Below, piece after piece: positions 6,555 to 17,256 of a stretch of DNA of 64,000 bases. The notes under the pieces were generated by a model, which had not been told where the DNA came from, made no database searches, and saw only the letters and a list, made by a program, of their open reading frames with translations. The DNA is from Xanthomonas sacchari. GTDB taxonomy: Bacteria; Pseudomonadota; Gammaproteobacteria; Xanthomonadales; Xanthomonadaceae. Location: NCBI RefSeq assembly GCF_024266585.1, contig NZ_CP100647.1, forward strand, positions 3,329,001-3,393,000. Reading direction: 5' to 3'. Position 1 is the stretch's first letter; every line of letters starts with the position of its first letter. The position numbers and the translations under genes were made by a program.

Positions 6555-6778
6555 TGGAGCGCCCGCGGCCAGGACACAAGTCGGCCAGAATGAGCGGCGA
6601 CACCGCCAGCAGGTCGCTGCTCTGCCCCAACCATTCACGGCGATCGCTCCGATGGGCGCGCTGCTGGACGTCGCCCTTCACACACATCAGCGGCGGTTCA
6701 TCCACACCGACATGGCCTGCCGCGCAGCGATACAGCGAAGGCTCCTTGGCCACAGCCATCAACTGATGCATAGGCGCA
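6555..6778 (-). pseudogene. Decayed internal fragment of an S9 peptidase
   Basis: On the minus strand this reads VAKEPSLYRCAAGHVGV followed by ...VKGDVQQR... and ...LLAVSPLILADL. It is clearly a copy of residues about 515-590 of the intact S9 peptidase at 9963-11945 (VAKEPSLYRCAAGYVGVYDL, VKGDTQQR, LAVVSPVNLADK). A one-base insertion near 6764 breaks the frame just after the region matching the catalytic serine; no start, propeller or C-terminus remains. It sits about 150 bp past the POT stop codon. Together with the POT remnant at 9141-9290 it brackets the peptide locus. Confidence 0.8.
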
Positions 6779-6863
6779 ACAGTTAACAAGATGGATGCAG
6801 AGCAGCGCTCAACAGGCTTGATTTCAAAAGTTTCAAATGAAACCATGATGAATCCATCTTAAC

Positions 6864-6892
6864 TTGTCATGCCATGAGCACAGTGCTAGGTT
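6864..6892 (+). promoter_or_regulatory. Possible sigma-70 promoter of the precursor peptides
   Basis: TTGTCA at 6864-6869 and TAGGTT at 6887-6892 are separated by 17 bp and lie about 45 bp before the first precursor start. The -10 matches consensus at only three positions, so this is a tentative call. Confidence 0.3.
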
Positions 6893-6935
6893 CCATCCGT
6901 CGCCGCATGACGACATAAGGAAAAGGAGCTTCGTG

Positions 6936-7100
6936 ATGAAGATTCAAGATTCCAAACTCGAGAAACAGGATTCCCATCCCAACCCGTTCGCCATCCAGCT
7001 CGACGAGCCCATGCAAAATATTGCGGCGCCGGGCGTCTGCGAGATGAAGCCCTATCCCGGTGAAGATTCTCGCTGGTATTCCACCAAACCGGGCGGCTAA
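6936..7100 (+). CDS. Putative RiPP precursor peptide, copy 1
   Basis: A 54-aa peptide starting MKIQDSKLEKQDSHPNPFAI and ending GEDSRWYSTKPGG. A strong AAGGAAAAGGAG site precedes the ATG by 8 bases. It has the look of a leader (charged, residues 1-31) plus a C-terminal core with GVCEMKPY, GEDSR and STKPG blocks. A second copy, 215 bp downstream, shares all but six residues, and an asparagine-synthetase-like enzyme follows, a context seen with modified peptides such as lasso peptides. It does not fit a standard lasso core: the leader lacks the usual penultimate Thr, and if Gly33 began the core there is no Asp/Glu at ring position 7-9. The modification and product are unknown; precursor status is inference from tandem copies, size and context. 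Confidence 0.6.
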   Translation: MKIQDSKLEKQDSHPNPFAIQLDEPMQNIAAPGVCEMKPYPGEDSRWYSTKPGG

Positions 7101-7150
7101 AACGACGGCGATTCCATCAAGACGATGCGATTAGGAAAAGGAGCTTCGCG

Positions 7151-7315
7151 ATGAAAATTCAAGATGCCAAACTCGAAAAACAGGATTCTCACTCCAACCC
7201 GTTCGCCATCCAGCTCGACGAGCCCATGCAAAACATCGCGGCGCCGGGCGTCTGCGAGATGAAGCCCTATCTTGGTGAAGATTCTCGCGGGTTCTCCACG
7301 AAACCCGGTAGCTAA
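7151..7315 (+). CDS. Putative RiPP precursor peptide, copy 2
   Basis: A 54-aa tandem paralogue of the peptide at 6936-7100, with the same AGGAAAAGGAG ribosome-binding site. It differs at residues 6 (Ser to Ala), 15 (Pro to Ser), 41 (Pro to Leu), 47-48 (Trp-Tyr to Gly-Phe) and 54 (Gly to Ser). Four of the six changes fall in the last 14 residues, while GVCEMKPY, GEDSR and STKPG are kept. This pattern, conserved leader and varied tail, is usual for families of modified peptides. Synonymous differences (AAG/AAA, TTC/GCC changes) show the copies are not an assembly echo. A terminator hairpin follows 34 bp after its stop. Confidence 0.6.
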   Translation: MKIQDAKLEKQDSHSNPFAIQLDEPMQNIAAPGVCEMKPYLGEDSRGFSTKPGS

Positions 7316-7349
7316 AACGACGGCGATTCCATCAAGACGCCACGATAAA

Positions 7350-7376
7350 GAACGCCGCCATCAGGCGGCGTTCTTC
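7350..7376 (+). terminator. Terminator between precursors and enzyme
   Basis: A perfect 10-bp stem, GAACGCCGCC and GGCGGCGTTC, closes a 4-nt ATCA loop and is followed by TTCTGT. It lies 35 bp past the second precursor stop and 53 bp before the enzyme start. It probably stops most transcripts, so that precursors exceed enzyme, as in many peptide gene clusters; the enzyme would be made by read-through or its own promoter. Confidence 0.7.
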
Positions 7377-7390
7377 TGTCCGAAAGCGCG

Positions 7391-7432
7391 ATGACCACAC
7401 AACGCCGATCGCAGGCAGCCGAGTCGCCATGA
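7391..7432 (+). CDS. Possible 13-aa leader ORF coupled to the enzyme gene
   Basis: ATG at 7391 opens a 13-codon frame whose TGA (7430-7432) overlaps the enzyme ATG (7429) in an ATGA arrangement. The enzyme itself has no clear ribosome-binding site, so coupled translation from this short frame would explain its expression. It could equally be chance. Confidence 0.25.
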   Translation: MTTQRRSQAAESP

Positions 7433-8994
7433 TCAAGGCCAATATCGCTTTTCCCGACCTCGAGCATCCCCCGGTGTGGCAGGACAATACCCTGTGTCTC
7501 GGCAAAAGCCAGATCGCGCCCTACCGTCACTCCGCTGTGGAAACCGTCGTGGTTCGCACGCAGGGACAATGGTTCGCGACGGTACGCGAGCGTTGCAGGG
7601 ATGTCGCATGGGAAAACACCGAGACGGGCGCGTTGGTCGACGCCGATCGATTCAATCAACTTTACAAAGAAGCCCTTCTATGGCCGCTTGATTATCTCAT
7701 GATCGAAGTGGCCCAGGCCGGATGCCGACTGAAGTTGCGCGCCGGCCTTCTCGGATCGGCGCCGGTCTATTGCCGGGTCACCGATGACGCAGTGGAAATC
7801 TCCTACGATCTGGCCGACTTTTTTTCCCGGCCCACCACCATCGACCTGGAGATGACCAGCCGGCGTCTCGCACTCAGCGCAGACTACTCCGCCAGGCAAT
7901 TGTGCTCGGGCGTTGTGATGCTGACAGAACGCGCCGCGCTTTACGCGGAGCCGGGCAAGACGCGTTACGTCTATCCTTCGCCTGCTGAAACCCTATCGCC
8001 TTCCGAAGAAGCACTGATCGACTACGGCGTAGAGCGATTCGAGCAACTGTTGCATCGTGCGATTTCGATTCGACCCGCATCGAAGCAGGTGGCCGCGGAG
8101 TTGAGTGGAGGCATGGACTCGGCGACCGTTGCCTGCGCCCTGACTCGATCGCATGACAACTTCCTGAGCTTGGGAATCTTGCTCGACGAGGGACACAGTC
8201 AAACCCAGGCCGAACGCCGCCGCATGCTTGTTGAAAGGCTGGGCCTTCGCGACACGCGCATCCCTATCGATTCATTTCCGCCAACGCTCGATCTGCAACC
8301 CAGTGCGGATCGACCGAACTATCCCCTTGCCGAGTTCTATCTCGAAGCGTTCGAAAATCTATGGGACAGCGCTCAATCACAGGGCAGCGAATGGCTTTTC
8401 ACCGGGATTGGCGGAGACCAGCTGTTCCCAACATACCGTGACGAGGACCATCCCACTGCCAGTCCTGGCGACAGGGTGGTCGCAGAAGCCAAGCGTCGCG
8501 CGAACCTGTTGTTGACGCCCCGAGCGCTCAATGCATCACGTTCGATCAGCGGATTTGATGCTCCCGCCGGCCTGTTGTCTGCATCCGTATTGGCGTCGAA
8601 CGCGTGCCAGGCTCCCCATCTGCTTCGGCGAGGCCTTTGGCCGGTCAATCCGTTGAGCGATCCACACTTGGTTTCTTTTTGTCGGCTCCTGCCTCTGCAG
8701 AGCCGTAAAGATCGAGAAACGATGTGGCGGTACTTGCGCGCCAACGTAGGCGACGTATTTCCACGAAACTATTGCAAGGAAACGTTCGCCCATGTGCTTC
8801 CTGGACTGATCGCACATCAGGCAAAGACGATCACCCTGCAACTGAGCGAGTGCGCCCTTGCCGACTTGGGCCTGGTCAACCGAGACGCTGCCCTTCAGTT
8901 GCTGGACGAGTTGGTGGCGACGCGCGCACGCCCGCTGACGGCGCCGCTGATCTCGTTCCTTTGGCTGGAGCGCTTCGTTCGACAGTTTGCCTGA
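7429..8994 (+). CDS. Asparagine-synthetase-like ATP-dependent amide-forming enzyme (lasso cyclase / beta-lactam synthetase fold)
   Basis: A 521-aa protein of the AsnB superfamily. The PP-loop SGGMDS is at residues 226-231 and TGIGGDQLF at 325-333, both parts of the ATP-adenylating synthetase domain. The N-terminal half (1-200) resembles the glutaminase domain in layout (GSAPVYCR near 109) but begins MIKANIAFP, so the nucleophile Cys2 of true glutamine-dependent AsnB is missing. AsnB relatives without this cysteine include lasso-peptide macrolactam cyclases and beta-lactam synthetases, which activate an acid side chain and join it to an internal amine. Two precursor-like peptides lie just upstream. 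No B-type protease, leader-binding (PqqD-like) protein or ABC exporter was seen nearby. GC content is visibly lower than in neighbours, suggesting transfer. Enzyme family is solid; peptide cyclisation is inference. Confidence 0.8.
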   Translation: MIKANIAFPDLEHPPVWQDNTLCLGKSQIAPYRHSAVETVVVRTQGQWFATVRERCRDVAWENTETGALVDADRFNQLYKEALLWPLDYLMIEVAQAGCRLKLRAGLLGSAPVYCRVTDDAVEISYDLADFFSRPTTIDLEMTSRRLALSADYSARQLCSGVVMLTERAALYAEPGKTRYVYPSPAETLSPSEEALIDYGVERFEQLLHRAISIRPASKQVAAELSGGMDSATVACALTRSHDNFLSLGILLDEGHSQTQAERRRMLVERLGLRDTRIPIDSFPPTLDLQPSADRPNYPLAEFYLEAFENLWDSAQSQGSEWLFTGIGGDQLFPTYRDEDHPTASPGDRVVAEAKRRANLLLTPRALNASRSISGFDAPAGLLSASVLASNACQAPHLLRRGLWPVNPLSDPHLVSFCRLLPLQSRKDRETMWRYLRANVGDVFPRNYCKETFAHVLPGLIAHQAKTITLQLSECALADLGLVNRDAALQLLDELVATRARPLTAPLISFLWLERFVRQFA

Positions 8995-9140
8995 CAATCG
9001 CAGTCAGCAGGCACCGAGGCCGCTGTCCCAGCGTACGCAGCTCTGGCTGCACGACGACGCCGAAACGGCCGGCGGCATGTGAGGCAACGCCAGTTTTACC
9101 TGCCAGGCAGCCGGCGGCATTCGCCTTGGGAAAGCGCGCG

Positions 9141-9290
9141 CTACGGCCAGTTCCTCGACCTCGCCGAGGCGGCGGCCAGGTCCGTGTACCGGTTCTGGCT
9201 GCTGCCTGGACCGGCGCGGGTCGCGCGCCCCTGGCCTTCCTTGCCGCGCCGCCACTGCTGCGGATGATGCATGAGGCGCGCTTAGCGGGT
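9141..9290 (+). pseudogene. Decayed 3' end of a POT peptide permease
   Basis: Reads GQFLDLAEAAARSVYRFWLL and then, after a frameshift, LAFLAAPPLLRMMHEAR. This matches the end of the intact POT permease at 6261-6410 (GQTLDIADAAAKYAHLFWLL, LAFLAAPLLRRMMHGVR) at both protein and DNA level. About 50 C-terminal codons remain; nothing recognisable of the rest is present in 8997-9140. Confidence 0.8.
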
Positions 9291-12148: not shown

Positions 12149-15100
12149 TCAGAACGCGACGCGCAGGCCACCAGTGATGCCGTACGCCGAGCGGTTCTTT
12201 CCGACTTCCGCGTTCAGGCCGACGTAGACATAGGTGCTCTGGGCCAGCCTTACCGTGCCATTGGCGTTCAACTGCACGAAGCCGCGGCCGATCTCGGGCG
12301 CCGCCGTCTCGAAGCGCTGGCCGGCCAGGGTGTTGTGCACCGTCGGATCCAGCAGGTCGCCGGTGTCGGCGCCCACCGCGACACCAGCACGCCAGGTCTG
12401 CTCGGCGGCGAGCGGATCGGCATCCTTCGAACCCAACGCCACGCCCGCGAGGATCCGTGTGCCGGTCTGCGACAGGGCGTCGAGCGAAAGCGCCGCCAGC
12501 GAACCGCCGCGCTCGCTGGTCGCGTCGCGCTCGACCTTCTGCCAGATCACGCTGGCATAGGGCTCCACGCGGTTACCCGCCGCCGTCTGGATCGGGAAAC
12601 GCATGCCGGTCGAAGCCATCAGGTCCTTGCCCGATGTCCGGCTTTCGATCGATGCGCCGCCCAGCGGATCGGCACGGTGCGTCAGCCAATCCGTGGAGCC
12701 GTAGGCGACGATGCCATCCAGCACGACACGACCCGCCTGCTGCTGCGCGTAGAGCATGCCCGCGTTGCCGCGGACATTGCCACGGCCGCCGTGCGACATC
12801 ACGCTGGTGTCGTGGTGACTGGCGCCCACGCCGACGACAGTCCCGCCATCCGCATACAGATCGATGCCGGCGCTGGTGCGGTCGGTTCCGGTATCGAAGC
12901 CCGAGCCCTGTCCGTCGGCGACGGTGCGGTTGCCGTCGCGGGTCACATTGGCCCAGGCCTGGTGCCCGGCCGCGGCCTGCGCATCGGTGCCGAGATGATC
13001 GGCGACGTCGCGCTGGATGCCGAGGCCCGCCACGCGCGCGGCAGCGGCCTGATCGGCATGCACTTCGCCGCCGAGACTGGCGACCATCGGCGCGACTTGC
13101 GTCGCGCCCAACGACGACACCGCATACAGCAGTCCGCTCTGGGCAGCGGTGGCCGATCCGGCCACTTGCGCGTTCAGGGTGCTGTCGAGCGCACCGGCGA
13201 CGTTGAGGGCGTTGCGGTTCGCGGCGTCGCCCAGCAAGGGCGCATAGGACAACGGCGCGACGCGCAGATCGATGCTATTGCCATTGTTGACACCATAGAA
13301 GGCGACGAAACGCGCATTGGTCGGCAGACCATCGGACGGAGCGATCGAGCTGAAGCGACCGACGACGCCGCCATCGGCGGTGACGATGCGGAAGGTCGTG
13401 CCCAGAACCGGCGTATAGGTATTGCTTGCGCTGCCGGTCATGCCGCGCAACAAGGGCTGCAACACGCCGTTGGCGAAGAAGCGATGCCCGGCGCCGACTA
13501 CCAGGAGACGCGAATAGTTGCCGACACCATGCGCGGTTCCCAGACCGTCGATGTCCATCTGCATGGTACTGGCGGCGCTCATCCTCACATCGCCGCTGAC
13601 GACGAGCGTACCGGGCGAGGCACCCGGCGCCAGCTTGCCATCGACGGTCACCGGGCCGCTGATCGCCCCAATGCCACGCAGCGTCGCGCCTTGGTTGACC
13701 TGCACGAAGCTGCTCGCCAGCACACCGTTCGCCGCGAGCATGCCCTCCGCCACGCAGGTTCCGCTGCCCAGGATCGCGTTACCCGAAAGGTTCAGGCGTC
13801 CGGCACCGGATTTCACGAAACAGCCATTGCCGGACGCCTCGGCGATGGTGCCGGACAGTTCGGTGGAAGTGCCGGTGGCCACATCGACGCCCGCGTTGCC
13901 GCTGAGCAAAACCTGCTGATTCGTGCCCAGCGTCGCCACCGTCTGCAACATGCCGCCTTGCAGCAGGATCTGCCCCGTGCCCAGCGAAGAGCCACTGTCG
14001 ATACGGACCACGCCGCCCTGGATGAGGGTACCGCCGCTGAAGGTGTTTTTGCCGCTCACCACCAGCGTGCCGCCGCCAAGCTTGGTCAGGCCGCCGCTGC
14101 CGCTCATCTCGCCCTGCTGGGACAGCGTGGCGCCGTCGAGCGTGGTGATGCTCGCACCCTGCGGACCGAAGCTGAAACCGCGCGTCGTGCTCATCGTGTT
14201 GGTCACGGTGAGGTTGCCGCCATTGAAGGTCACCCCATTGGAAGCATCGCCGAGATTGGCATCGGAGGAGATCTGCAGGGTCCCGCCGTTGAGCGTGTTG
14301 CCGCCGGTGTAGGTATTGGCACCGCCGAGCACCAGCATGCCGCCGTTGACCGTGGTGCCACCGCTGTGCGCAGCCACACCTTCGATGTCCAGCGTGCCCG
14401 CGCCGTTCTTCACCAAACCGCCGATGCCGGACAAGGGGCCATTGGCGGTCAGCGTCGTGCCCGCATCCGTGGCGATCGCGCCATTGCCGTTGAGCGTCAG
14501 CGCGCGGCCGGTGGCGAAGTTGCCGGTGGTATGCAGCGCACCGCCATTGAAGACGATGCCATTGGAGGCATCGCCGAGATTGGCGTCGGAGGAGATCTGC
14601 AGGATCCCGCCGTTGAGCGTATTGCCGCCGGTGTAGGTGTTGGCACCGCCGAGCACCAGCGTGCCGCCGTTGACCGTGGTGCCGCCGCTGTGCGCGGCCA
14701 CGCCTTCGATGTCCAGCGTGCCCGCGCCGTTCTTCACCAAGCCGCCGCTGCCGGACACGGGACCGTTGGCGGTCAGCGTCGTGCCCGCATCCGTGGCGAT
14801 CGCGCCATTGCCGTTGAGCGTCAGCGCGCGGCCGGTGGCGAAGTTGCCGGTGGTATGCAGCGCACCGCCATTGAAGGCGATGCCATTGGAGGCATCGCCA
14901 AGATTGGCGTCGGAGGAGATCTGCAGGATCCCGCCGTTGAGCGTGTTGCCGCCGGTGTAGGTGTTGGCACCGCCGAGCACCAGCGTGCCGCCGTTGACCG
15001 TGGTGCCGCCGCTGTGCGCGGCCACGCCTTCGATGTCCAGCGTGCCCGCGCCGTTCTTCACCAGGCCGCCGCTGCCGGACACGGGACCGTTGGCGGTCAG

Positions 15101-17005
15101 CGTCGTGCCCGCATCCGTGGCGATCGCGCCATTGCCGTTGAGCGTCAGCGCGCGGCCGGTGGCGAAGTTGCCGGTGGTATGCAGCGCACCGCCATTGAAG
15201 GCGATGCCATTGGAGGCATCGCCAAGATTGGCGTCGGAGGAGATCTGCAGGATCCCGCCGTTGAGCGTGTTGCCGCCGGTGTAGGTGTTGGCACCGCCGA
15301 GCACCAGCGTGCCGCCGTTGACCGTGGTGCCGCCGCTGTGCGCGGCCACGCCTTCGATGTCCAGCGTGCCCGCGCCGTTCTTCACCAGGCCGCCGCTGCC
15401 GGACACCGTACCGGTGCTGGTGGTGGTGGTGCCGGCATCGGTATTGAACGTACCGTTGCCCGTCACCACGACATTGCGCGCGGTAGCCACGCTGCCCATG
15501 GTGTGCAGGGTGCCGTTGTTCAGCGCCAGACCGCCCGACGCGTCACCGAGGTTGTGATCGCTGGAGACCTGCACCGTCGCATTGGTAACGCGGGTGCCGC
15601 CGGTGTAGGTGTTGTTGCCGCCGAGCACTTGGGTGCCGCCATTGACGTCGACGCCTCCGCTGCCGGAGACCGTACCTGCGATGCTGCCGCCATTGGCCTG
15701 CGACACCACCAGATCGTGGCTGCCAAGCGCGACATCGCCCAGACCGCCGATATTGCGAACCGTCACGTTGCCGCCTGCGCCGGAAAGATCGAGCGTGCCG
15801 TTGTTGGTCACGCCACTGGACGAGGCGATGCTGCCCGCGCCGCCGATGGCGAGGGTCGCACCAGTGTTGACCGTGGTCTGGCCGGTATAGGCGTTTTGGC
15901 CGGTCAGTGTTACCGCACCGCCCTGGCCGCTGTTGGCGATGGTGAGCGCACCAGGGGTACCTGCGCTATCGTCCGAAATGGCACCGGTCAGCGTCGTCTG
16001 GTGGCCGGCCTGGTCGATCGTGCCGCCATGGTCGGTGATGGTGAAGGTCTGGTTGAGGGTAGTGTCCTGGGTCGGCAACAACGTACCGCCGTCGAACTTG
16101 CCGTTGTTGCTGCCGAGCGTGGTCGTGGTGGTCGGCTGATTGATGACCGTTAAGGCGGGACCACCCGCATTCTGCGTCTGCGACGGGGAAGCCAGGGACG
16201 TGAAATAAGGATTGTTGGGAGTACAGTCGGCCACAGGACCGGTGAGGCTGACGCATTGGCCGGCGTAGACGCCAAGCTCGATGTCGTTGTTGCCAGCGCC
16301 CGCGGTATTCGCAAATCCGGTGGTGGAAGCCGTGAACCTGATGGTGTAGGTCGTGCCGGCGGCAAGGCTGATGCCCTGGTAGATGCCATCGAAGCTGCCG
16401 ACCGCGCCGTCGTACCAGGAGCCCGCGACGCCCGCTTGGTTCACGTTCGTGGTCGACGGACCGGACGTGCCTGGAGCATGCCAGACACCCGCTGCTTCCG
16501 GCGTCGTACCGGTCTGATAGACGATGCCCCAGCCGGCAGGCGCCTGCAGTCCGCTTTGCGCATTCGCCGCGCCGCCGCGCACGAAAAGCGGATTATCGAA
16601 GAGGTTGGTGGAACTGTTGATCTCGTAGAGGCCGACATTGCCGAAGGTCCAGTAGGACGGATCCTGGCGAAACGCGAACAGCACATAATTGTTGCCGCTG
16701 CTGGTTGCGGTGTAATTGACGGAGTACACCTGGAACTGGTTTGGCGTATTGCTGGCGCTGTTGGACGCCGAGCCGTTATTGATGTCCAGGAGCGCACCGG
16801 TCGGCATGGCGAGATTGGCAGCGTGCGCGGGCAACGTGAATACCAGTGCCAGTGCCAGACTGCTCATACCATTCAGGACAAATGGCGTACCGTCCCGGCC
16901 GCGCACAGCAGATCGGCCGCCACGCGAGGTGGATCTGGCATGTTCGGATGTGACCACCATCTGGCCGAGCGCGCGGTTCCAGACGATGCGGAAAATTTTG
17001 TTCAT
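12149..17005 (-). CDS. Type Va autotransporter with ESPR signal and repetitive beta-helix passenger
   Basis: 1618 aa from ATG 17005 (MNKIFRIVWNRALGQMVVTS), an extended signal-peptide region (ESPR) typical of large autotransporters; upstream in-frame ATGs are rejected because they precede it. The signal ends near LVFTLPAHA. The passenger has GxGGLxKxGxGTLxLxG and NTYTGGT repeats, characteristic of passenger-associated repeats forming a beta-helix. Three near-identical 108-residue blocks plus a diverged one lie in the middle. The last 270 residues form the outer-membrane beta-barrel, beginning near WANVTRDGNR and ending in a terminal Phe (GGLRVAF), as required for barrel insertion. No protease motif was seen in the passenger, so an adhesin or biofilm role is more likely than an enzyme. 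Clp/CRP-like sites lie about 230 bp upstream. Confidence 0.9.
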   Translation of the reverse strand: MNKIFRIVWNRALGQMVVTSEHARSTSRGGRSAVRGRDGTPFVLNGMSSLALALVFTLPAHAANLAMPTGALLDINNGSASNSASNTPNQFQVYSVNYTATSSGNNYVLFAFRQDPSYWTFGNVGLYEINSSTNLFDNPLFVRGGAANAQSGLQAPAGWGIVYQTGTTPEAAGVWHAPGTSGPSTTNVNQAGVAGSWYDGAVGSFDGIYQGISLAAGTTYTIRFTASTTGFANTAGAGNNDIELGVYAGQCVSLTGPVADCTPNNPYFTSLASPSQTQNAGGPALTVINQPTTTTTLGSNNGKFDGGTLLPTQDTTLNQTFTITDHGGTIDQAGHQTTLTGAISDDSAGTPGALTIANSGQGGAVTLTGQNAYTGQTTVNTGATLAIGGAGSIASSSGVTNNGTLDLSGAGGNVTVRNIGGLGDVALGSHDLVVSQANGGSIAGTVSGSGGVDVNGGTQVLGGNNTYTGGTRVTNATVQVSSDHNLGDASGGLALNNGTLHTMGSVATARNVVVTGNGTFNTDAGTTTTSTGTVSGSGGLVKNGAGTLDIEGVAAHSGGTTVNGGTLVLGGANTYTGGNTLNGGILQISSDANLGDASNGIAFNGGALHTTGNFATGRALTLNGNGAIATDAGTTLTANGPVSGSGGLVKNGAGTLDIEGVAAHSGGTTVNGGTLVLGGANTYTGGNTLNGGILQISSDANLGDASNGIAFNGGALHTTGNFATGRALTLNGNGAIATDAGTTLTANGPVSGSGGLVKNGAGTLDIEGVAAHSGGTTVNGGTLVLGGANTYTGGNTLNGGILQISSDANLGDASNGIVFNGGALHTTGNFATGRALTLNGNGAIATDAGTTLTANGPLSGIGGLVKNGAGTLDIEGVAAHSGGTTVNGGMLVLGGANTYTGGNTLNGGTLQISSDANLGDASNGVTFNGGNLTVTNTMSTTRGFSFGPQGASITTLDGATLSQQGEMSGSGGLTKLGGGTLVVSGKNTFSGGTLIQGGVVRIDSGSSLGTGQILLQGGMLQTVATLGTNQQVLLSGNAGVDVATGTSTELSGTIAEASGNGCFVKSGAGRLNLSGNAILGSGTCVAEGMLAANGVLASSFVQVNQGATLRGIGAISGPVTVDGKLAPGASPGTLVVSGDVRMSAASTMQMDIDGLGTAHGVGNYSRLLVVGAGHRFFANGVLQPLLRGMTGSASNTYTPVLGTTFRIVTADGGVVGRFSSIAPSDGLPTNARFVAFYGVNNGNSIDLRVAPLSYAPLLGDAANRNALNVAGALDSTLNAQVAGSATAAQSGLLYAVSSLGATQVAPMVASLGGEVHADQAAAARVAGLGIQRDVADHLGTDAQAAAGHQAWANVTRDGNRTVADGQGSGFDTGTDRTSAGIDLYADGGTVVGVGASHHDTSVMSHGGRGNVRGNAGMLYAQQQAGRVVLDGIVAYGSTDWLTHRADPLGGASIESRTSGKDLMASTGMRFPIQTAAGNRVEPYASVIWQKVERDATSERGGSLAALSLDALSQTGTRILAGVALGSKDADPLAAEQTWRAGVAVGADTGDLLDPTVHNTLAGQRFETAAPEIGRGFVQLNANGTVRLAQSTYVYVGLNAEVGKNRSAYGITGGLRVAF
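14313..15410. repeat. 324-bp direct repeats inside the autotransporter
   Basis: Units beginning near 14313, 14637, 14961 and 15285 (the last partial) repeat with a 324-bp period, i.e. 108 codons, in frame. The units at 14637 and 14961 differ at very few positions; the 14313 unit carries more. Each encodes a KNGAGTLDIEGVAAHSGGTT to ATDAGTTLTANGP block. High identity makes copy-number change by recombination likely. Confidence 0.9.
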
Positions 17006-17201
17006 TGATGACGCCCCCTGTGATCCTGGATTCATATGCAGTTCGCCCTCCTCACCGAGGGCGAAAGCGACTTGACGCAAAACAGAGGGCTTGCCGTAAG
17101 CCAACCTCCTGCTAATCGCATCGATCCGACATTGACATTGGCTTAACGCTATTTCGTGACAAAAACCAAAGAATTTGTCTACAAAACGATCACGTATCGA
17201 C

Positions 17202-17256
17202 ATTGTGTGACACAAATTTAGAGTCAATCACAAAAATTGTGATAAAAGTCACAATT
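17202..17256. promoter_or_regulatory. Cluster of Clp/CRP-like palindromes upstream of the autotransporter
   Basis: 17235-17256 is a perfect 8-bp inverted repeat around 6 bp, containing TTGTGA-N6-TCACAA, which matches the CRP/Clp recognition pattern TGTGA-N6-TCACA exactly. It overlaps a second palindrome at 17227-17243 (ATCACAA-AAA-TTGTGAT), and TTGTGTGACACAA lies near 17202-17214. The stretch is markedly AT-rich against its surroundings. Xanthomonads regulate adhesion and virulence genes with Clp, a CRP homologue controlled by cyclic di-GMP, so control of the autotransporter is plausible. Confidence 0.6.

Follow-up and report, generated by a model that had tools for sequence, protein, structure and literature searches.

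What an enzyme of the AsnB superfamily, familiar for asparagine, beta-lactams and lasso knots, might do to two small peptides encoded just upstream of it is the question raised by a locus of Xanthomonas sacchari. The locus lies in a stretch of 64,000 nucleotides (contig NZ_CP100647.1, positions 3,329,001 to 3,393,000; here called the window), in which a sequence-only reading had seen a two-gene system of ribosomally synthesized and post-translationally modified peptides (RiPPs) rather than an ordinary lasso cluster, and had proposed an internal amide, for example between Lys38 or Lys51 and one of Glu36, Glu43 and Asp44. Comparison of this cassette with its relatives supports the two-gene RiPP-like system and speaks against an ordinary lasso cluster by the absence of a linked lasso B2 protease, by the lack of the penultimate leader Thr and by the separate clade of the enzyme. 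In our judgement the cassette probably specifies a ribosomal peptide that would be cyclised by ATP-dependent closure of a macrolactam between a Lys side chain and an Asp, on the leader-bearing peptide.

Precursor peptides and their pairing with the enzyme

The two near-identical 54-residue peptides with strong ribosome-binding sites described earlier were borne out: each open reading frame (ORF), as read from the sequence, has AAAAGGAG 7 nt 5' of its ATG, and a tandem duplication of 215 nt holds both precursors (6915-7129 and 7130-7344, 90% identical). Precursor 1 is laid out as a leader with NPFAIQLDEPM, followed by K38-P-Y-P-G-E-D44 and the tail SRWYSTKPGG. Of the terminator placed between precursors and enzyme in the sequence-only reading, the strong 12-bp hairpin stands (folding energy of -30.3 kcal/mol for the stretch 7330-7395, z = -5.6); its U-tract is weak and a simple consensus terminator scan did not list it on the + strand.

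Relatives of the enzyme were collected in several searches. A scan with one genome per species gave five, and profile A1, built from six enzymes and used order-wide with three candidates scored per genome, matched in 29 of 397 genomes of the order and 12 of 98 genera, all at E <= 6.4e-212; in a sample of close relatives the enzyme was present in 8 of 60 genomes, the window genome included, all of the same genus. After four duplicates were dropped, 35 distinct Xanthomonadales enzyme loci remained, the window among them. The class sample (1/321) and the phylum sample (1/349) returned only the window genome with the Xanthomonadales profile (E <= 1e-10, at most four candidates per genome), so that the spread beyond the order rests on a plasmid collection. 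There, the window enzyme as query gave 55 records, with identities among the matches listed (20 of the 55) of 82% for Xanthomonas sacchari, 48% for Mesorhizobium and Aminobacter, 39% for Bradyrhizobium, 30-31% for Streptomyces and 27% for Rhizobium. The Streptomyces and Rhizobium enzymes as further queries added plasmid loci, and 18 plasmid loci were taken for analysis. The total came to 53 loci with the window, some of them near-duplicates, from Xanthomonas, Rhodanobacter and kin, Mesorhizobium/Aminobacter, Bradyrhizobium, Rhizobium and Streptomyces, with enzyme identity down to about 24%. Phages searched for the enzyme gave no match.

At all 53 loci a candidate precursor adjoins the enzyme, as the proposed co-occurrence of peptide and enzyme would have it. 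A homologous precursor with the leader motif was present at 35 of 35 distinct loci of the first searches, window counted, and the pairing is more than chance. A position-weight scan of the leader motif, in which neither Lys nor Asp was used, found a precursor at each of L001-L039; the precursor lies downstream of the enzyme in L029, and L001 and L018 have two precursors each. L018 is a second locus with a tandem precursor pair of differing cores, like the window. At the plasmid loci a small ORF with K-x5-D adjoins the enzyme in 18 of 18 cases, Xanthomonas sacchari included, and by eye the leaders of the non-Xanthomonas loci seem unrelated. Nine of these 18 precursors had been annotated as genes by others (L136, L137, L141, L147, L148, L149, L150, L152 and L153). 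Among the chosen plasmid ORFs, L142, L143 and L151 look alike by eye, as do L139, L140, L154 and L155, and L138 resembles L137. Furthermore, a fixed rule (a same-strand ORF of 25-100 aa with the motif, ending between 450 nt upstream of the enzyme and 40 nt inside it) was satisfied at 45 of the 53 family loci versus 1 of 38 distinct control loci with PF00733 or NF033535 (AsnB/lasso-type) genes.

The feature common to the precursors is the spacing of one Lys and one Asp. Fifty precursors were compared, near-duplicates of five plasmid loci being excluded, and the core motif is K-x5-D in 44 and K-x6-D in six (L004, L017, L020, L021, L024 and L029), for instance KPYLGED in Xanthomonas, KASEPGD in Dyella, KPIPLEGD in Rudaea, KVRLPGD in Mesorhizobium, KAPFPND in Bradyrhizobium, KFLVRGD and KGGKPGD in Rhizobium, and KPAGTED, KAAETSD and KMPGGGD in Streptomyces; the equivalent in the window is Lys38-Asp44. 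Dereplication at 60% over the last 32 residues left 23 precursors, in which residue pairs with gaps of up to 13 were counted, two neighbouring gaps being pooled. Lys...Asp at +6/+7 was the sole residue pair present in all 23 full-length precursors (22 of 23 inside the last 32 residues); the runners-up were the overlapping Lys...Asp at +5/+6 in 20 and, as the best other pair, one found in 19. The best pair of any kind in shuffled sequences reached at most 20 of 23, whether the last 32 residues (500 shuffles) or full-length sequences (300) were shuffled. When the small ORFs of 39 loci were counted, the precursors of the family among them, 98 of 3618 had K-x5/6-D followed by 5-19 further residues. 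The residue preceding the conserved Lys is Pro in 23 of the 50 precursors, the tail after the proposed ring has 6-15 residues (26 in one relative), and the C-terminal residue is Gly in 35, the rest being spread over nine residues.

L005, L006, L013-L016, L018, L019, L022, L023, L025-L028, L030-L033 and L035 have a further Lys (K-x-x-P-K), four residues N-terminal of the conserved one; it is not universal. Part of these precursors have an acid 6 or 7 residues on from it, and a second ring is conceivable in them.

The enzyme family

The window enzyme (P0001) has an N-terminal region without Cys2, followed by a synthetase domain with SGGMDS (residues 226-231) and GIGGDQ (326-331), as had been described. 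Pfam matched Asn_synthase at residues 204-352 (1.8e-8), NAD_synthase and, weakly, QueC, and no ATP-grasp family. Among NCBIfam models the best match was NF033561, the albusnodin/ikarugamycin macrolactam cyclase, at 37.4 bits against a cut-off of 300 (1.2e-9), followed by 26.2 bits (cut-off 267.1) for the asparagine synthase equivalog and 19.8 bits (cut-off 525) for the lasso cyclase NF033535. NF033561 gave 14.5 bits with one of three Streptomyces family members and no match up to E 0.01 with the other two. Since the benenodin-type cyclases L130 and L145 also fall below the NF033535 and NF033561 cut-offs, these scores are a weak test taken alone.

Across 22 diverse family members the PP-loop and GxGGD are kept in all, and the glutaminase Cys2 was found in none, the start codon of L141 being uncertain. 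Invariant in the 22 are S226, G227, G228, D230, S231, Q260, R263, R264, D275, G326, G328, G329, D330, G402, W404, P408 and E451 in window numbering. A maximum-likelihood tree of 48 proteins (22 family enzymes, 8 lasso cyclases and 18 other AsnB-type proteins; unrooted, with albusnodin-type cyclases left out) placed all 22 on one side of one branch with support of 100/100 and no lasso or other AsnB row within, and the 8 lasso cyclases in two other places. The family is thus a clade of its own in this tree, and the firm clustering with standard asparagine synthetases that would have refuted the sequence-only reading was not found.

Beta-lactam synthetase and CarA adenylate a carboxylate and make an intramolecular amide from it. 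Against solved structures the family profile ranked beta-lactam synthetase 1jgt first (9.6e-11), then hydroxyamidotransferase 7ylz (1.1e-5), CarA 1q15 (1.4e-5) and asparagine synthetases (6e-4); a phmmer search of the same structures with a single enzyme gave no match at E 0.01.

Proposed ring closure and its alternatives

With the ATP site kept and the glutaminase nucleophile absent, the peptide itself or free ammonia should supply the amine, and because Lys and Asp are the only amine and side-chain carboxylate at a common fixed spacing, a side-chain lactam on the intact precursor is favoured. It is favoured also because there is no linked protease to expose the Lys and because Pro so often precedes it. 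Moreover, none of the 62 lasso cores of Table 1 in PMC12427821 begins with Lys (39 Gly, 9 Ser, 7 Cys, 3 Ala, 3 Leu and 1 Trp), so that closure through an alpha-amine would leave the constancy of Lys unexplained, which points to the side chain. We propose that the enzyme would recognise the leader (NPFAIQLDEPM in the window) and bind ATP in the PP-loop, that the beta-carboxyl of Asp44 would be adenylated, and that the side-chain amine of Lys38 would attack it. One water would be lost (-18.011 Da) and a macrolactam of seven residues, or of eight in some relatives, would be closed; the calculated monoisotopic mass would thereby fall from 6057.88 to 6039.87 for peptide 1 and from 5932.85 to 5914.84 for peptide 2. 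The leader would not have to be removed first, and a lasso B protease would not be required; leader removal, export and bioactivity, if any, would depend on host or lineage-specific genes. The internal amide suggested earlier thus appears to be the likeliest chemistry, narrowed to Lys38-Asp44: bonds to Lys51, Glu36 or Glu43 were rejected because these residues are not conserved, Lys51 being Gln in the eight other Xanthomonas precursors compared, Glu36 missing in other lineages and position 43 varying. Of the three outcomes named beforehand as refuting the earlier interpretation, none was found; as a whole it is partly supported, as the Lys-Asp bond is a deduction from sequence with which a lasso closed on an alpha-amine would be compatible too.

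Several points weigh against the Lys-Asp side-chain lactam or the evidence adduced for it. A spacing of seven or eight residues is lasso arithmetic as well, and side-chain and alpha-amine closure would look alike in sequence; in L029 there are two candidate Asp partners, for a ring of 8 or 13. The later regular expression required a Lys somewhere C-terminal of the leader, which the position-weight scan did not, and the other 9 of the 18 plasmid precursors are unannotated ORFs chosen among several with the motif already known; L144 and L151 have another small annotated ORF upstream. The fixed rule was likewise written once the motif was known, and it misses 8 of the 53 family loci, namely L014, L015, L020, L026 and L033 with the precursor inside a frame of more than 100 aa, L137 and L153 with a 26-residue tail, and L029 with its downstream precursor. 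As to the enzyme, the profile of the family lies nearer to the AsnB proteins (99.6%, E 3.9e-24), lasso cyclases giving 1.3e-16, and an earlier six-sequence profile ranked NAD synthetase first (0.0029), with 1jgt at 0.19. Finally, no recurrent exporter or immunity gene was found among 19 Xanthomonadales neighbourhoods of 17-20 kb, in which ORFs of at least 120 aa with GC-rich third positions were compared.

The explanation closest to the proposed lactam is a minimal lasso pathway, in which an unlinked host protease would cut before the Lys, the alpha-amine of Lys1 would be joined to Asp7 or Asp8 and the tail of a 13-22-residue core would be threaded. Ring size and core length (33 residues in L137) match lasso peptides, W, Y or R in the tail behind the ring might serve as plugs, and 429 columns of the family profile show similarity to lasso cyclases (98.7%, E 3.8e-16); pseudomycoidin is reportedly a lasso peptide produced without leader and leader peptidase. 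The Asp does fall at ring position 7 (44/50) or 8 (6/50), only when Lys is counted as residue 1, and Lys is present in 50 of 50 precursors as against none of the 62 tabulated cores at that position. The penultimate leader Thr, reported earlier as missing from the window, was found before the conserved Lys in 0 of 50 precursors, and the Pro directly before that Lys in 23 of them likewise speaks against the pathway, as does an enzyme clade apart from both lasso cyclase groups. The protease was sought through PF13471, the lasso B2 family, in 33 carrier genomes: some match occurred in 25 and a match above the cut-off in 19, most matches spanned 40-80 positions within frames of about 500-650 aa, and E < 1e-17 was reached only in G252, G000, G399 and G130. 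Eight carriers had no match (six of the eight carriers of the window's genus, G269 and G224), and on the contigs with the cassette no match in any of the 33 came closer to it than 80 kb, the shortest distance being about 85 kb (G194). Pfam scans of ten window ORFs (the enzyme, both peptides and seven others within 1.8-19.8 kb) found no B protease, RRE or ABC exporter, in agreement with the sequence-only reading. The gene tables of the 18 plasmid neighbourhoods, which are incomplete, list no B2 gene, and no RRE/PqqD-like B1 was seen by Pfam in the ten window ORFs or among the plasmid annotations, no genome-wide search having been made for it. By contrast, G130 and G252 hold complete lasso loci elsewhere in the genome (L130 and L131: benenodin-family precursor, B2, C and isopeptidase), and in two plasmid control lasso loci these genes are likewise annotated, together with a TonB receptor; genuine lasso loci thus look unlike the cassette, even where one genome has both. 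An ordinary lasso cluster was rejected on the B2, penultimate Thr and clade tests. A split cluster was rejected as well: the window genome has a single B-protease-like gene, at 4.584 Mb and thus 1.25 Mb from the cassette, and six of the eight same-genus carriers have no match to that family. Altogether we regard the minimal lasso pathway as unlikely.

Outside the window, at a separate locus of the window genome (G000:C1:4574600-4594500, L050, and 4603000-4612000, L132), the B-protease-like PF13471 gene (73.9 bits) was observed together with two further AsnB-like genes at 4575570 and 4607036, the latter with 217 bits to NF033535.

Two further explanations part with ring closure altogether. The enzyme could use ammonia to amidate the C-terminus or the conserved Asp, giving Asn, with the Lys serving recognition only; according to PMC13060819, the C-terminus of ribosomal peptides is amidated by TsrC and ScdTA and nitrilated by PesC, which accepts free ammonia. 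Such a role is made improbable by the absence of Cys2 from all 22 members, by a strict Lys...Asp spacing that amidation would not need, and by C-termini that vary where they are not Gly. That the enzyme is a divergent metabolic asparagine synthetase beside an unrelated small gene would fit its Pfam match and its profile likeness to AsnB proteins, yet this is hardly credible given a precursor with the same spacing at loci of two phyla and other AsnB-type genes in 12 of 12 carrier genomes searched, and it was rejected because of the separate clade and the missing Cys2. The side-chain lactam between Lys38 and Asp44 is accordingly retained as the preferred reading.

Genomic setting and relation to known systems

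The features of the cassette and of its borders are collected in the table. In carriers the cassette sits between a POT transporter gene and an S9 peptidase gene, and on a 508-kb X. sacchari plasmid it lies between the same two genes. Five genomes of the genus have the POT transporter gene and no cassette (G398, G400, G401, G403 and G296): in G400, G401 and G403 the S9 peptidase is convergent to the transporter, with match ends about 165-285 bp apart, and in the other two no peptidase match was found in the flank examined. The window, G101 and G404 each have a peptidase remnant on the transporter side; on the peptidase side, the 3' end of the transporter gene is found again in G404, at about 90% identity, and in decayed form in the window. 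The Xanthomonas cassette is accessory and carries insertion scars, and to judge by these repeats its acquisition looks like recombination with partial target-site duplication. A role for the S9 peptidase or the POT transporter was considered and rejected: they look like insertion-site neighbours, adjacent in 3 of the 5 cassette-free genomes.

Features of the cassette and its borders, in window positions
Feature	Position	Strand	Basis or remark
S9 peptidase gene remnant, transporter side (insertion scar)	6580..6762	-	aligns at 60% identity with S9 peptidase residues 518-579 in the window; repeat D2
Ribosome-binding site AAAAGGAG, precursor 1	6921..6928	+	sequence; scored Shine-Dalgarno-like
Precursor peptide 1 (P0002, 54 aa)	6936..7100	+	ORF
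Lys38 codon, precursor 1, proposed nucleophile	7047..7049	+	Lys of shared K-x5/6-D
Asp44 codon, precursor 1, proposed activated carboxylate	7065..7067	+	Asp of shared K-x5/6-D
Ribosome-binding site AAAAGGAG, precursor 2	7136..7143	+	sequence
Precursor peptide 2 (P0003, 54 aa), tandem duplicate with altered core KPYLGEDSRGFSTKPGS	7151..7315	+	ORF, repeat analysis
12-bp hairpin in the gap before the enzyme gene, perhaps a terminator or attenuator	about 7348..7375	+	folding
AsnB-superfamily enzyme (P0001, 521 aa), proposed Lys-Asp macrolactam synthetase	7429..8994	+	ORF, Pfam, tree
Decayed copy of POT transporter gene 3' end, peptidase side (insertion scar)	9143..9288	+	repeats D3, D4

Grouping of the 19 Xanthomonadales neighbourhoods recovered the enzyme in 17 and any other gene in at most three; of the gene groups found at three loci, two are shared by the three Xanthomonas loci, and the remaining four triples include two that combine Xanthomonas loci with L065. 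Elsewhere a phosphotransferase gene lies downstream of the enzyme (L137, L138, L142, L143, L151 and L153, from two Mesorhizobium, Aminobacter, Rhizobium NLR16a and Vaf-108, and Bradyrhizobium japonicum), followed by a GNAT acetyltransferase gene in L137, L142, L143 and L153; tailoring or self-protection are possible roles for them. ABC transporter genes are near the Streptomyces loci L141 and L147 and the Rhizobium loci L142 and L143. In the Rhizobium leguminosarum group (L149, L150 and L152, about 4.6-7.3 kb) rhiC and a gene for acyl-homoserine-lactone synthase lie next to the pair, a hint that it may be under quorum-sensing control. These neighbours suggest tailoring, export and density control in some lineages; in Xanthomonadales the pair seems to stand by itself. 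The annotation of strain 248 (L152) gives the enzyme only as a shortened gene. Within the window, a 1692-aa ORF with PATR repeats and an ESPR signal of type V secretion was observed at 12149-17227 (-), and near-identical overlapping ORFs at 14316-15557 suggest internal repeats of about 324 nt.

For now the cassette is best described as probable RiPP macrocyclisation by an AsnB-type enzyme, and a class of its own would be deserved if the Lys-Asp side-chain lactam is true. We lean, with some reserve, towards such a class in Gammaproteobacteria, Alphaproteobacteria and Actinomycetota, in which one AsnB-superfamily enzyme would install the lactam (K-x5-D or K-x6-D) on a leader-bearing peptide with neither a protease nor a separate recognition protein, as another route besides ATP-grasp graspetide ligases and B/C lasso maturation and possibly as an ancestral protease-free form of lasso-like cyclisation. 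If this is true, a single enzyme would suffice for a compact macrocycle from an encoded peptide without a leader protease, offering a simple two-gene tool for constrained peptides and a genome-mining rule (a Cys2-less AsnB-like enzyme paired with a small ORF that has K-x5/6-D). The finding would then have a bearing on the origin of lasso cyclases and place cryptic peptides in plant-associated bacteria, including Rhizobium leguminosarum plasmids near quorum-sensing genes. Among the titles and abstract openings listed in searches of the open-licence PMC literature, a scope outside which subscription papers and most preprints fall, none describes such a pair.

Lasso cyclases (C proteins) share with the window enzyme the AsnB superfamily and a small adjoining precursor and, in the chemistry proposed here, Asp adenylation and a seven- or eight-residue macrolactam, whereas the cassette has no linked B2 or isopeptidase, a first ring residue that is Lys and not mostly Gly, Ser or Cys, no penultimate Thr and a separate enzyme clade. 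The closest NCBIfam model, NF033561 for albusnodin/ikarugamycin cyclases, is matched far under its cut-off. Beta-lactam synthetase and CarA, the first and third solved structures by profile, are AsnB-like formers of intramolecular amides, but their substrates are small molecules and not ribosomal peptides. Graspetides are made in a leader-dependent manner by ATP-grasp ligases, whereas the cassette enzyme belongs to the AsnB superfamily. The proposed product type, a side-chain-to-side-chain lactam, is nevertheless theirs, as they comprise omega-ester and omega-amide peptides (PMC13097080). PesC of nitrilobacillin, TsrC and ScdTA are, like the window enzyme, asparagine-synthetase-like (AS-like) and work on ribosomal precursors; they differ in that the C-terminus is amidated or nitrilated, with nitrogen from glutamine or ammonia in the case of PesC (PMC13060819). 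The same source finds some 3,800 AS-like proteins close to RiPP elements: about 3,500 are lasso-related, and the other 300 or so are uncharacterised. The family described here may be among the latter.

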